NCBI GenBank assembly: GCA_002155105.1
Contig: MUZD01000010.1
Span: forward strand, 1-64,000
Direction: 5' to 3'
DNA length: 64,000 bases
Source of the DNA: Sedimentibacter sp. SX930
GTDB taxonomy: Bacteria; Bacillota; Bacilli; Lactobacillales; Aerococcaceae
Shown here: in pieces, positions 9,145 to 53,764 of the stretch
How the letters are laid out: every line of letters starts with the position of its first letter
Position numbering within the stretch: the first letter of the stretch is position 1
The notes under the pieces: generated by a model
The model's input: the letters and a program-made list of their open reading frames with translations, nothing else
What the model was told of the DNA's origin: nothing
The model's database searches: none
Position numbers and translations under genes: made by a program

Positions 9145-9187
9145 GGTTGCGTTTCTGCGTATTATTGGTTAGAATTGAATGAGAAAC

Positions 9188-9270
9188 ACTGGGGGTGCGC
9201 GCGAGCGCTGAGACCGGCATTGCCGGAACTCTTTGTCCCTGATCTAGTTCATACTAGCGTAGGGAATGTG
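9188..9270 (+). ncRNA. TPP riboswitch aptamer 1
   Basis: Contains the THI-box blocks GGGGTGC, GCTGAGA, CCTGATCTAG, and ATACTAGCGTAGGGAA in order. One change from consensus is seen: the usual GAACCTGATC is GTCCCTGATC. It is followed within about 30 nt by its own hairpin terminator. First of two aptamers in front of thiW. Confidence 0.9.
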
Positions 9271-9299
9271 GCGTTTGACTATTCGCATAAATAGATATC

Positions 9300-9348
9300 A
9301 AAACGTTATATTTTCTGATTTTCGCATCAGATCATATAGCGTTTTTTA
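9300..9348 (+). terminator. Expression-platform terminator of TPP riboswitch 1
   Basis: Stem AAACGTTATAT/ATATAGCGTTT with one G-T pair and an inner TCTGAT/ATCAGA stem, then six T. It lies between the two TPP aptamers. Confidence 0.85.
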
Positions 9349-9355
9349 ATTTCAG

Positions 9356-9434
9356 TAGGGGTGCGCAACTGCGCTGAGACCGACACTGTCGGAACCCTTC
9401 AAACCTGATCCAGTTCGTACTGGCGGAGGGAACT
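9356..9434 (+). ncRNA. TPP riboswitch aptamer 2
   Basis: Second THI-box with near-consensus blocks: GGGGTGC, GCTGAGA, ACCCTTCAAACCTGATCCAG and TACTGGCGGAGGGAA. Followed by a compact terminator at 9464-9492. Thiamin pyrophosphate binding is expected to stop transcription before thiW. Confidence 0.95.
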
Positions 9435-9463
9435 GAGCTCGGTCTGGAGTCCGTATGTATATC

Positions 9464-14265: not shown

Positions 14266-14317
14266 AAACCCATGAGGTTTTCCTTTTCAAAAGGAGAAAC
14301 TCATGGGTTATTTTTTT
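14266..14317 (+). terminator. Terminator of dhaLM
   Basis: Stem AACCCATGAG(GTTT)TCC paired with GGA(GAAA)CTCATGGGTT, followed by a run of seven to eight T. Confidence 0.88.
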
Positions 14318-14350
14318 GAAAAGAGATTAGAACGCTCAGCAATCGATTTC

Positions 14351-14494
14351 TACCCGGGAATCATCACGCACTTATTAGACGCGTTCTGATTCGCAGGGGG
14401 TTCCGCCTAAGCTGCTATTACGTCACGGCCAAAAAACGGCCGTTCTCGTAATAGCCTCTTAGTGCTCACTCCCTAAACGCGAATCATCACGCTC
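14351..14494. repeat. Framed hairpin repeat, copy 1
   Basis: Core hairpin 14387-14486: outer stem TGATTCGC/GCGAATCA, GGG/CCC, CTAAG/CTTAG, GCTATTACG/CGTAATAGC, and the inner ACGGCC/GGCCGT around an A-rich loop. It is preceded by a CCCGGGAATCATCACGC half-unit and followed by TCACGCTCT. The same frame occurs twice at 29.8-30.1 kb with a different core. It fills the gap between dhaM and the convergent iclR, ending just before the iclR stop. Confidence 0.8.
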
Positions 14495-14495
14495 T

Positions 14496-15272
14496 TTATT
14501 TTGTATAGGCGAGTTTTTTTGAGATTTCTTTCGACATGCGCAGCATGTACTCTTTTATTTTCTCAACTTTTTCATCAGTCATACGGAATACGGGGCCGCT
14601 GATGCTGATGGCTGCCACGACTTTTCCGGTGTAGTCGATAAGCGGTACCGAAATGCATTTGGCTCCGATTTCGCATTCCTCGTTATCCATCGCCACACCT
14701 GTTTCTTGGACAGTTTCCAACTCTTTAAAAAGAGCCTCAGGTGTTGTGAGGGTTTTGGCGGTCAATGCCGGCATTCCTTTTTCTTTCAGGATGTCCTCGA
14801 TTTCCTTCTCCGTATAGTTTTGAAGAATATTTTTTCCGACGCTGGTCGCATGCAAAGGAGCTCTTTTTCCGATCCGTTGCATCGTCTTCAGCATGTTGTC
14901 CGGCCCGTTGATGACATCGATGTAAACCACTTCATGATCTTCTTCGATAGCCAAGCATGAGGATTCCTGGAATTCCTTCGATAACGCGACCAGATCGTCA
15001 TGGACTAAGTCACGGATATCATATTGCCCGCTCACTAGACTGCCCAGCTGGGCCAATTTCAAGGTAAGTGCATATTTGGATGAGTCGGCGTTTTGGTAAA
15101 CATATCCGAAGGAACTCAACGTGCTTAAATAACGCAATACGGTGCTGCTTGGAGAATTCACTTGATCAGCAATGTCCTGCAGCCGCATTTCACCACCTTG
15201 AGATACCAGTAATTCGATGATCTGTAATACTTTTTCGACCGATTGATTTTTTTTAACTTTTTTTTCAATCAC
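14496..15272 (-). CDS. IclR-family regulator (AllR-like), divergent from gcl
   Basis: 258-aa regulator. The N-terminal winged helix (about 10-75) has SVEKVLQIIELL and IADQVNSPSSTVLRYLSTL. The C-terminal IclR effector domain (about 90-255) has APLHATSVGKNIL and EECEIGAKCISVPL. The start is taken as GTG at 15272 because GAGGGGG (15281-15287) is well placed; an in-frame ATG at 15320 has no visible ribosome binding site. In E. coli the glyoxylate carboligase operon is held off by AllR, an IclR protein responding to glyoxylate/allantoin. The same role is inferred here from divergence with gcl and from two matching inverted repeats between the genes. Confidence 0.88.
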   Translation of the reverse strand: MIEKKVKKNQSVEKVLQIIELLVSQGGEMRLQDIADQVNSPSSTVLRYLSTLSSFGYVYQNADSSKYALTLKLAQLGSLVSGQYDIRDLVHDDLVALSKEFQESSCLAIEEDHEVVYIDVINGPDNMLKTMQRIGKRAPLHATSVGKNILQNYTEKEIEDILKEKGMPALTAKTLTTPEALFKELETVQETGVAMDNEECEIGAKCISVPLIDYTGKVVAAISISGPVFRMTDEKVEKIKEYMLRMSKEISKKLAYTK

Positions 15273-15345
15273 TTTGTTTTCCCCCTCATGAAAGGATTTC
15301 TCTTGATTGCAGTTTACCATAGACAGATAAATTTCTCAATTTTAA

Positions 15346-29698: not shown

Positions 29699-29780
29699 AC
29701 CCGCCAAAATCAATTTGGCGGGCTTAAATGCAACGCTCCACACAAAATAACCTTCCGAAAGCTGTTCGGAAGGTTATTTG
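29699..29780. terminator. Two further hairpins behind the carbamate kinase gene
   Basis: CCCGCC...GGCGGG (about 29700-29722) and the 15-bp AAATAACCTTCCGAA/TTCGGAAGGTTATTT (29745-29779). The second is AT-rich on both flanks and can act in both directions between the convergent genes. Confidence 0.6.
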
Positions 29781-29802
29781 TTGTATGAAGCAGCAGATTT
29801 TA

Positions 29803-29937
29803 CCCGGGAATCATCACACTCTACGCAAACGTGTTCTGATTCGCAGACACCACTACCGTTTCGCACCCGGCTGTCATCCACAAAAGAAGTGAATGGCAGC
29901 CGGGTGCTCCAACGTACGGGTGTCTAAACGCGAATCA
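29803..29937. repeat. Framed hairpin repeat, copy 2
   Basis: Hairpin 29837-29937: outer TGATTCGC/GCGAATCA as in copy 1, then AGACACC/GGTGTCT, CCGT/ACGG and GCACCCGGCTG/CAGCCGGGTGC. The core is unrelated to copy 1 although the frame is the same. Preceded by CCCGGGAATCATCACAC and a CTCTACGCAAACGT linker. Confidence 0.8.
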
Positions 29938-30066
29938 TCACACTCTACGCAAACGTATTCTGAATCCCAGAAATCTGTGCCTAAGCTGACTAACCCACAC
30001 GGACAAAAGCGTCCGCTTTGTGTTAGTCCTCTTAGCGCTCGATTTCTAAAGCGGGATTCATCACGC
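29938..30066. repeat. Framed hairpin repeat, copy 3
   Basis: Hairpin 29961-30060: outer stem TGAATCCC/GGGATTCA, where both strands differ from copies 1 and 2 yet still pair fully. Then AGAAATC/GATTTCT, CTAAG/CTTAG, GACTAAC/GTTAGTC and GGAC/GTCC. Linker CTCTACGCAAACGT is shared with copy 2. It ends beside the pucR stop. Confidence 0.8.
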
Positions 30067-30067
30067 T

Positions 30068-31699
30068 CTATTCGTCGTCTTGGGATAATTCCAGGGCTAG
30101 TCTTAGGTTTAGGCTGAAGTTTGGATCATCAATCGGTGTTCCGAGTATCTCTTCGCAATGGTTGATTCTGTACTTGACTGTGTTGCGGTGTATGAACATC
30201 GCTTTTGACGTGCGCGTGATTTCGCATTGGTAGTCAAGGTAGGTCTTCAGCGTCCGGCGCAATTCGATCATGGCGTCTTCTTCAGGATAGGCCAGCTCGT
30301 GGAGAACCGACTGGCAGAAATATTTGATTTCGTCCGACTGCATCCTTTCGAAAAGGCTAAGCATGCCTTGCGGGCGATAATAGCTGATGCGTGGCTGTGG
30401 ATCTTTGGCAAACCCTTCATCGAAAGCTATCTTGGCTTCAATGTAGGAATTGGCGATCATATCGATTTTTTCATAAGGATGACCATAGGAGAACGCCAAG
30501 GAAATCGGAAGGACCTTCTCGAGTTCTTCTGCAGTTGTCCGCAGGATATCATCTATCGCCTCATTTTTGGACTGCAGCAAAAGAAGCAGATGGTTTGTAT
30601 TTTTCATCGGGAAAAGCAAGGCATCCCGGAAGTGGAAAGCCAGTGCGTCGGAAAGCCATTGGTTGACCAATTGAATTTTTTCCCGGCTCAATTTATCTTT
30701 GAAGATCGAACTCTTTTCGTTCCGACAATTGATGTAAATAACTTGATAATAATGGGAATTGATGATGCCAAAGCTTTGCCCAAGGTCGAGCCAATTTTTT
30801 TGCTTAAGTGTTGGAGATTGCTGGTTCTCTATCAATTGTTTGAAATAATCGCTGCGGATATCCTGCTTGGACTCCTCCACTTTCAGATTTTTGTAGATGA
30901 CAAACGACAGAACCATGGAGGCCTGATCAACCGCAAATTCCGATACGGGATAAGGGATCTGTTCAGGCCTCAATATGATCAAATAGTAAGGGAAATAGTT
31001 GTTCGCACGGATCGGATAGATGGAAATCTGCATCTCTTGGTTGTCCATATCGGTTATCAAAAAAGAGTCCGTTGTGTCTGCCGAAAGATGCGGCTTTTTC
31101 TCATGCACTTGCCCAACATAATATTCGGCAGGCTTGCTGGATTGGGTGAAATGCTTGGAATGGGCGATCACTTGCCGGAAAGGATTCAACAAGATGACCG
31201 GTGTTTTGATCATTTTGCCGAAATCGGAAATGAAGCGCGCAATACTCGCGTCGTTCATCAGCAGGTTCGAGAAACGCTTTTGGATGTCCAAAGCGTAGCT
31301 CATTTGTTCTGTCTTTTGGTTCCACAAATAGTTCAGCATTTGATGGGATAGTGTCCCGAGCGGGGTCGTACTTGGAATTTGGATCAAAGGGAAACGTACT
31401 GAATTGGCATAATTGATAATGACATGATCGATTTCTGGAAGGAAGCGACCGACTTTTATCCCCAGTCCAGCAGCGTTTACACGCATCAAAGAATCAATCA
31501 AAGGGATCAACCCTTGTTGGTCATTTTTGTAGCTCATGGCAGTCGTCAGCAAAAAAACATCCTTTGGTATGTAGAAAGCCACATCTGGTGTCTCGGATAT
31601 TTCGATGCTCGTCACTGCATGAGAGAGATCTGCTCCGGCATTGAGCACTTTGAGATCGGAGAAGCGGGGCAAATCCAACAGTTCTTTCATTGTAGTCAT
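30068..31699 (-). CDS. pucR: PucR-family regulator of purine/ureide catabolism
   Basis: 543-aa cytoplasmic transcription regulator. The N-terminal PucR domain (about 1-125) starts MTTMKELLDLPRFSDLKVL; a GGDEF-like middle part follows; the C-terminal helix-turn-helix carries SKAMFIHRNTVKYRINHCEEILG. In B. subtilis PucR activates the allantoin genes when allantoin-type inducers are present. The start at 31699 is chosen because AGGAGGG stands 6 nt upstream; a longer frame to 31750 starts with four Met and lacks a site. Divergent from pucG and placed centrally in the island, so it likely controls allC-, pucG- and permease operons. Confidence 0.92.
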   Translation of the reverse strand: MTTMKELLDLPRFSDLKVLNAGADLSHAVTSIEISETPDVAFYIPKDVFLLTTAMSYKNDQQGLIPLIDSLMRVNAAGLGIKVGRFLPEIDHVIINYANSVRFPLIQIPSTTPLGTLSHQMLNYLWNQKTEQMSYALDIQKRFSNLLMNDASIARFISDFGKMIKTPVILLNPFRQVIAHSKHFTQSSKPAEYYVGQVHEKKPHLSADTTDSFLITDMDNQEMQISIYPIRANNYFPYYLIILRPEQIPYPVSEFAVDQASMVLSFVIYKNLKVEESKQDIRSDYFKQLIENQQSPTLKQKNWLDLGQSFGIINSHYYQVIYINCRNEKSSIFKDKLSREKIQLVNQWLSDALAFHFRDALLFPMKNTNHLLLLLQSKNEAIDDILRTTAEELEKVLPISLAFSYGHPYEKIDMIANSYIEAKIAFDEGFAKDPQPRISYYRPQGMLSLFERMQSDEIKYFCQSVLHELAYPEEDAMIELRRTLKTYLDYQCEITRTSKAMFIHRNTVKYRINHCEEILGTPIDDPNFSLNLRLALELSQDDE

Positions 31700-31771
31700 T
31701 AAAAACCCTCCTAGTGGCTTTATTTTAAATGAAACCGCCATCATCATCAAGAGTTAATTTAGGCAAAAGCT

Positions 31772-53492: not shown

Positions 53493-53533
53493 CTCCTTTG
53501 GGTAAAATGGAAGGGATAGGAAAACCATTCAAA

Positions 53534-53628
53534 GACACTTGGAATTTGGAAGTTTGGTGAAAATCCAACGCGGTCCCGCCACTGTGATGACGTCCCGGAA
53601 CGTCTTAGTCAGGTCTTCATTCCAAGCT
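53534..53628 (+). ncRNA. Cobalamin (B12) riboswitch
   Basis: Contains the B12 box and flanking conserved parts: GGTGAAAATCCAACGCGGTC, CCCGCCACTGTGATG, GTCAGG and a closing GGAAT/ATTCC stem. It precedes a DUF4430 lipoprotein gene by 137 nt. Expected to switch the two downstream genes off when B12 is plentiful. Confidence 0.92.
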
Positions 53629-53764
53629 GCTATTTTTTGCAAGCGTGCCGTTTCGAGGTAAAACGGTCCCGTTACTTGTCTATGCGATGGCGCATGGGCT
53701 TTTTTTGCATGATCCCGGCCGTTGGCGATGCAACCCCTGTCGAATACAGATTAGGAGTGGAGAA

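Follow-up and report, generated by a model that had tools for sequence, protein, structure and literature searches.

EFAR was reportedly described in 2007 as a modular element of about 170 bp with stem-loop targets. In the accessible parts of the sources, EFAR is listed as a MITE of enterococci (PMC3733652), and Efa-1 of E. faecalis is given as a 163-bp intergenic element with 65 copies that consists of a pair of adjacent stem-loops (PMC2267715). The family of hairpins analysed here is also multi-copy, intergenic and palindromic, with 31 matches in its own genome and up to 139 in genome G268. In its two adjacent stem-loops and its size, Efa-1 comes near the ~180-bp repeat of genome G201, whereas the units of the window (the whole stretch of DNA that was analysed, 64,000 nt) are single hairpins. 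Enterococcus plasmids carry relatives and are the best named ones. EFAR and Efa-1 are the closest known repeats, and by their descriptions in the parts of the sources available they look like the same kind of thing. The constant GA/GA mismatch, the bulge, the gene-end register and the order-wide range of the present family are not described for EFAR or Efa-1 in those parts. Across the literature searched, largely outside subscription journals, no report of the family in Trichococcus or of an order-wide family was found, nor a description of its register, polarity, shape rule and range; measured against that literature, the family appears EFAR-like.

Several other systems share some of these features. 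The attC sites of integron cassettes are hairpins behind a stop codon that are recognised by unpaired bases and shape, have a variable terminal part and are arranged as tandem cassettes. The present units have the hairpin behind the stop codon, the variable terminal part and the tandem order in common with them, but no gene lies between the units. MITEs of the YPAL, ERIC, NEMIS, RUP and Bcr1 type are usually defined by sequence conservation and not by shape, and we know of no tandem arrays with exchanged cores among them. They resemble the present units as small non-coding palindromic repeats near genes, and are named among bacterial MITEs in the accessible parts of PMC3733652 and PMC2229807. 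REP/BIME elements and their RAYT transposases are similar in gene-end position, palindromic structure and possible recognition by shape, but the present units are about 100 nt long, have variable flanks and no GTAG or CGTC end, and Y1 is absent from some high-copy genomes. In the available text of PMC12306157, ribosomes are reported to stall at E. coli REPs that lie no more than 15 nt from a stop codon.

The window hairpins and their common shape

Three complete hairpins were found on the minus strand of the window (Table 1). Each is a single hairpin of ~118 nt without its own terminator, and the two at 30 kb stand in tandem, unit A being the first behind the PucR-domain gene. For the hairpins at 14377-14494, 29827-29945 and 29951-30068, in this order, the RNA folding energies were -59.9, -64.1 and -44.8 kcal/mol (z -9.80, -9.66 and -7.52), and none of 200 shuffles folded as well in any of the three cases. 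The minus strand is the informative reading strand, on which the frame starts at or near the stop codons of the PucR- and IclR-domain genes. All three hairpins, with the stems and cores quoted by the first-pass annotation, are present in the sequence. The linker that it gave as shared is CTCTACGCAAACG in the 30-kb pair, but the 14.4-kb copy has CACTTATTAGACGCG at that place.

Table 1. Features at the 30-kb and 14.4-kb sites of the window
Feature	Position	Strand	Details
Hairpin unit A	29951..30068	-	left flank GAGCGTGA; outer stem TGAATCCC/GGGATTCA; second stem AGAAATC/GATTTCT
Hairpin unit B	29827..29945	-	left flank GAGTGTGA; outer stem TGATTCGC/GCGAATCA; second stem AGACACC/GGTGTCT; other inner frame
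14.4-kb unit	14377..14494	-	left flank GAGCGTGA; outer stem TGATTCGC/GCGAATCA; second stem AGGGAGT/ACCCCCT; behind IclR-domain gene
GCGTA (minus strand)	29946..29950	-	between matched ends of units A and B; part of linker resembling gene end
Left-arm remnant	about 29796..29821	-	GAGTGTGATGATTCCCGGGTAAAATC; behind unit B; by eye
Left-arm remnant	about 14344..14371	-	GTGCGTGATGATTCCCGGGTAGAAATCG; behind 14.4-kb unit; by eye
PucR-domain gene	30068..31750	-	stop codon 30068-30070 shares one base with left end of unit A
IclR-domain gene	14496..15320	-	stop codon 14496-14498 one base from 14.4-kb unit
Separate terminator-like hairpin	29746..29780	.	A/T tails; downstream of 30-kb array; by eye
Separate terminator-like hairpin	14268..14318	.	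beyond 14.4-kb unit; by eye

An Rfam scan of the window gave 12 matches at gathering score, none of them covering the hairpins. A scan of 12 loci with relatives gave two matches, both below gathering score: cspA (35.7 bits, gathering 78) at L203 1769-2116, and Plastid-psbA-4 (31.1 bits, gathering 56.8) inside the L209 hairpin. The earlier remark that this is not recognised as a named element is correct only in part, given the likeness to EFAR and Efa-1. The window element had no match in plasmid and phage collections, nor had the 3-kb region among plasmids. Among the Rfam matches in the window were two TPP riboswitches in tandem (9181-9283 and 9347-9448, 63 nt apart, both above gathering score) and an AdoCbl riboswitch (53521-53677). 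Another repeat, with the pattern CCCGCCAAA..TTTGGCGGG(C)TATTT, is present at about 29700-29722 and in L003, L007 and L071; it lies near gene ends in the own genome and in relatives.

On the gene-sense strand, a unit consists of a left clamp, GA, an outer stem of 8 bp, a left bulge, a second stem of 7 bp, an inner frame with a variable hairpin, the mirror half, GA and a right clamp, so that a tandem G-A/G-A mismatch separates the clamp from the outer stem. The second stem mostly begins with AG, and the inner frame is of several kinds. Among the non-redundant units, 32 of 47 from Trichococcus and 41 of 49 from elsewhere have a left bulge of 4 nt, and these 96 units are 94-108 nt in length. In a wider set, 240 candidates obtained by pairing and flank rules were reduced to 136 by a second-stem rule, then to 134 distinct units, and to 133 after L029, which looks coding, was removed by hand; the 133 units measure 98-105 nt between the outer stem ends. 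Two departures from this plan were seen: in L011, L015, L016, L027 and L127 the right part is swapped for another module containing CTCAAACGTCACAGTGCGACGTTTGAGGTCTTT, and L009 and L017 have a longer insert, common to both, in the inner hairpin, giving unit lengths of 164 and 129.

RNAalifold predicted 25 pairs on 43 diverse units, and 24 of these pairs had changes on both sides, so that the covariation among copies implied by the first-pass annotation was found. A comparison of 71 distinct frames with shuffles, conditioned on pairing because its units were picked by pairing rules, gave both-side changes in 17 of 19 pairs (shuffles: mean 13.4, maximum 16), 286 both-side cells (mean 73, maximum 92) and 92.7% pairing cells (shuffle maximum 73.2%). 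The number of further pair types in these frames, 42, was within the shuffles (mean 38.4, maximum 45). A scan without a flank rule yielded 108 palindromes, with the left GA in 107 and the right GA in 105; the exceptions were two unrelated palindromes and one unit with AA. The constancy of GA is taken from this flank-blind scan, as the sets used for position, linkers, turnover, strand and length required GA on the left and either GA or AA on the right. The clamps of the 105 palindromes with both GA were GCGT/ACGC (30), ATAC/GTTC (19), GTGT/ACAC (16), ATGT/ACTC (10) and ten rarer combinations. A likeness of GUGAUGA to a C/D box, a hammerhead or a kink-turn was considered and rejected, since units with other outer stems (GAAAAGTC, CAAAAAGC) keep GA alone. 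The hairpin is kept by shape while its letters change, the stems by compensation. A fixed frame, exchangeable cores and compensatory stem changes, as first noted for the window copies, are supported by the unit alignment, the covariation, the flank-blind scan and the comparison of sites.

Distribution and turnover

The family is widespread in lactic-acid bacteria and some relatives, including a few other Bacilli. It was searched for with R1, a covariance model whose alignment includes unit A and the 14.4-kb unit, two of the three window units, so that their scores are circular. There were 31 R1 matches in the own genome, where a DNA search returned 29 places at E up to 1, including remnants, one other-strand duplicate and one apparently coding place. 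All 13 Trichococcus genomes had 12 to 36 matches each at E up to 0.001, and R1 matches were present in 43 of 76 genomes and 11 of 21 genera of the family; the many genomic copies expected from the three in the window are thus borne out in own genome, genus and family. Counts reached 80 in G018, 126 in G019 and 139 in G268, and presence within genera was patchy; in the g3 genomes, for example, the scored matches ran from 0 to 47. In the order Lactobacillales, matches at E up to 1e-4 were obtained in at least 95 of 395 sampled genomes and at least 33 of 80 genera, and a class-wide sample gave at least 9 of 398 genomes, five within the order and four outside it, the counts being lower bounds since these scans scored at most 9 candidates per genome under stricter filters. 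The frame is visible by eye in the four genomes outside the order. A pattern scan of named relatives gave 16 stretches, from T. palustris, Jeotgalibaca caeni, Desemzia incerta and Carnobacterium jeotgali.

With an element of G363 (family f3) as query, 125 plasmid records matched, 120 of them from Enterococcus, and R1 gave 25.9 bits on two of the matching records. Two plasmid records matching the Enterococcus-type element, OL539428.1 and NZ_CP151545.1, are labelled E. coli and P. aeruginosa. The E. faecium plasmid pAA242_1 (L277) has a second, partial copy some 570 bp further on that the other E. faecium plasmid, L278, lacks. Enterococcus-type elements are also carried by Listeria and Enterococcus 'phage' clone records such as OR846874.1, several per phage name, which are possibly host DNA.

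The units at one gene end differ between genomes. Behind the PucR-domain gene, G000 has A-B, G012 has C-A-B, G010 a single A with another core and G008 a single C, while G001 and G002 have remnants and no unit was seen in G006. Among the loci examined, 21 gene ends were common to at least two Trichococcus genomes, and site 1 had six compositions in nine genomes when one-base variants were pooled. At the 14.4-kb site the outer stem is the same in G000 and G012 but the inside is different. Even G000 and G009, which are of the same species, differ at the gene ends of L027 and L040; this, like some other site comparisons, was judged by eye. A clean empty/filled pair within one species did not occur among the genomes compared, and gene conversion between copies could be an alternative source of the differing arrays.

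Tandem hairpins are separated by 19-25 nt in 45 of 46 pairs, and the sequence just ahead of the second unit is similar to the gene end that precedes the first: 3.24 of 6 letters matched against 2.61 in 34 first pairs and 3.44 against 2.68 in all 46, each reached by 0 of 5000 permutations, with orthologous sites of several species counted separately so that the pairs are not independent. Nearly identical dispersed copies were found in G201, where a repeat of ~180 bp, made up of the large hairpin and a terminator-like hairpin, lies at 15 places beside the query, 11 covering about 180 bp and four about 145 bp. These copies are 94-99% identical, 13 of the 15 at 97-99%, and a terminator-like hairpin is part of the repeat in the G064 and T. 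palustris copies as well. Behind the orthologous gene in G098, G084 and G119, no unit was seen by eye in about 160 nt; at this gene end the terminator follows right after the stop codon in G098 and some 40 nt on in G084 and G119. In a test for target hairpins, the flanks of 12 G201 copies were complementary (23 of 5000 permutations), and those of 9 G064 copies were not complementary beyond chance (2727 of 5000).

Gene ends, strand and candidate mobilisers

The units are oriented with, and mostly stand directly behind, the 3' end of the preceding gene, singly or in tandem, and their content varies between species. In 71 of 122 distinct arrays the left end fell between -10 and +20 nt from a stop codon that closes a same-direction frame of 100 codons or more, and in 56 of these 71 the distance was -2 to +4, compared with 4 of 124 right ends at an opposite-strand stop and 138 of 3728 random places. 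In the enlarged locus set, with 148 array starts, the preceding frame had 100 codons or more in 81 cases and 60-99 codons in a further 9, orthologous sites of several species again being counted separately, which leaves the starts non-independent. The other 58 of the 148 were behind no frame of at least 60 codons; some of these were preceded by a decayed unit or remnant, and none of the 58 by a tRNA gene. Four copies were located 4-5 nt behind the end of the 23S rRNA and before the 5S gene (L193 in G268; L280, L281 and L283 in G538). These rRNA sites suggest that the elements are directed to gene 3' ends of any kind, without need for a stop codon.

Of 96 non-redundant units, RNA energies favour the fold of the gene-sense strand in 91, with a mean advantage of 6.4 kcal/mol, and DNA energies favour it in 93. 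The difference between the strands is mostly due to interior loops (10.45 vs 15.84 kcal/mol) and little to stacks (-69.86 vs -68.91). Wobble counts in the two stems, 14 vs 7 of 1440 cells, were not decisive in separating the strands. One strand appears to be under selection; since RNA and DNA energies give the same bias, RNA and single-stranded DNA are not separable by folding.

Two kinds of gene were compared with presence of the element over 76 genomes of the family. The Y1 transposase (PF01797) occurred in 28 of 43 element-positive and 8 of 33 negative genomes (p 0.0005), or in 16 of 30 and 8 of 33 without Trichococcus (p 0.02), and reverse transcriptase in 23 of 43 and 8 of 33 (p 0.018). 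Y1 matches were missing from seven genomes that carry 10 or more copies (G004, G018, G019, G020, G028, G029 and G053), and four of them (G018, G028, G029 and G053) had neither Y1 nor reverse transcriptase. Both were therefore rejected as the required mobiliser despite the statistical association, and no mobilising enzyme was found between these two candidates across the 76 genomes. The window has a Y1 (IS200-like) transposase gene (PF01797) at 1623-2024 and onward, and a frame from about 2063 has, by eye only, the look of an IS605-type partner.

Origin and possible roles of the hairpins

We consider it likely that the units belong to a superfamily of non-coding, MITE-like hairpin cassettes that is present in the Lactobacillales and a small number of other Bacilli, is maintained by shape and is brought to gene 3' ends. 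Of the three possibilities named in the first-pass annotation, a small mobile hairpin is the best fit, given the dispersed near-identical copies, the differing arrays at orthologous gene ends and the linker repeats; an mRNA-end protector or a structured RNA is compatible with the position and the strand bias. Units would spread by inserting either between gene end and terminator or within the hairpin of the terminator; each new unit would enter on the gene-proximal side, and a few gene-end letters would be repeated. A putative enzyme would recognise one folded strand through its tandem G-A mismatch and left bulge, much as shape is what is recognised in REP and attC sites. When transcribed, the hairpin would form a structure in the 3' UTR, with a possible effect on mRNA decay or on the ribosome at termination. 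By analogy with the E. coli REPs near stop codons, as given in the accessible text of PMC12306157, a role at the RNA level, on the ribosome or on decay, may be considered; a purely translational one is disfavoured because copies sit behind 23S rRNA.

More tentatively, the units may make up a gene-less cassette system running through the Bacilli, in which hairpins of ~100 nt would be recognised by their shape and not their letters, through the tandem G-A mismatch, left bulge and near-constant length. A putative enzyme would deliver them in register with gene 3' ends, where they would stack newest first so that the array at a gene end keeps changing, and the folded sense strand would have a function in the transcript as well.

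It is rather unlikely that the units are instead a functional 3'-end RNA family, acting in mRNA or rRNA end processing, stability or ribosome release, that is inherited with its genes under selection for RNA shape and changes by mutation and gene conversion and not by transposition. Such a family would account for the sense-strand fold bias, the invariant mismatch and bulge and the gene-end position, but it fits poorly with the patchy presence within genera, with the near-identical dispersed copies of G201 and with different units at one gene end, and RNA is not singled out since DNA energies show the same strand bias. We think it still less probable that these are elements of the REP type that owe their movement to a resident Y1 transposase (IS200/RAYT-like). 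The association of Y1 with the element would agree with this, as would the position of REPs behind genes and their dependence on shape, as described in the accessible part of PMC3733652. However, the seven high-copy genomes lack a Y1 match, the units are four to five times the size of REPs (20-40 bp) and have no constant GTAG or CGTC end, and the similar association of reverse transcriptases suggests a general load of mobile genes. That the units are ordinary intrinsic terminators, long by chance, is very improbable: they do occupy terminator positions, and the G201, G064 and T. palustris copies contain a terminator-like hairpin within the repeat, but the window units have no T run and are followed by a linker or remnant and only later by a separate terminator-like hairpin, and terminators are not characterised by a fixed length, internal purine mismatches or tandem arrays.

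If the units are indeed shape-kept hairpin cassettes delivered to gene 3' ends, many lactic-acid bacteria would have from tens to more than a hundred structured hairpins only a few letters away from gene ends, differing between close relatives and providing a source of 3'-end variation. The covariance model R1 makes the family directly searchable, and one structural definition could join repeats that are now separately named. The family would also point the way to an enzyme for which the shape of nucleic acid is the recognition signal.
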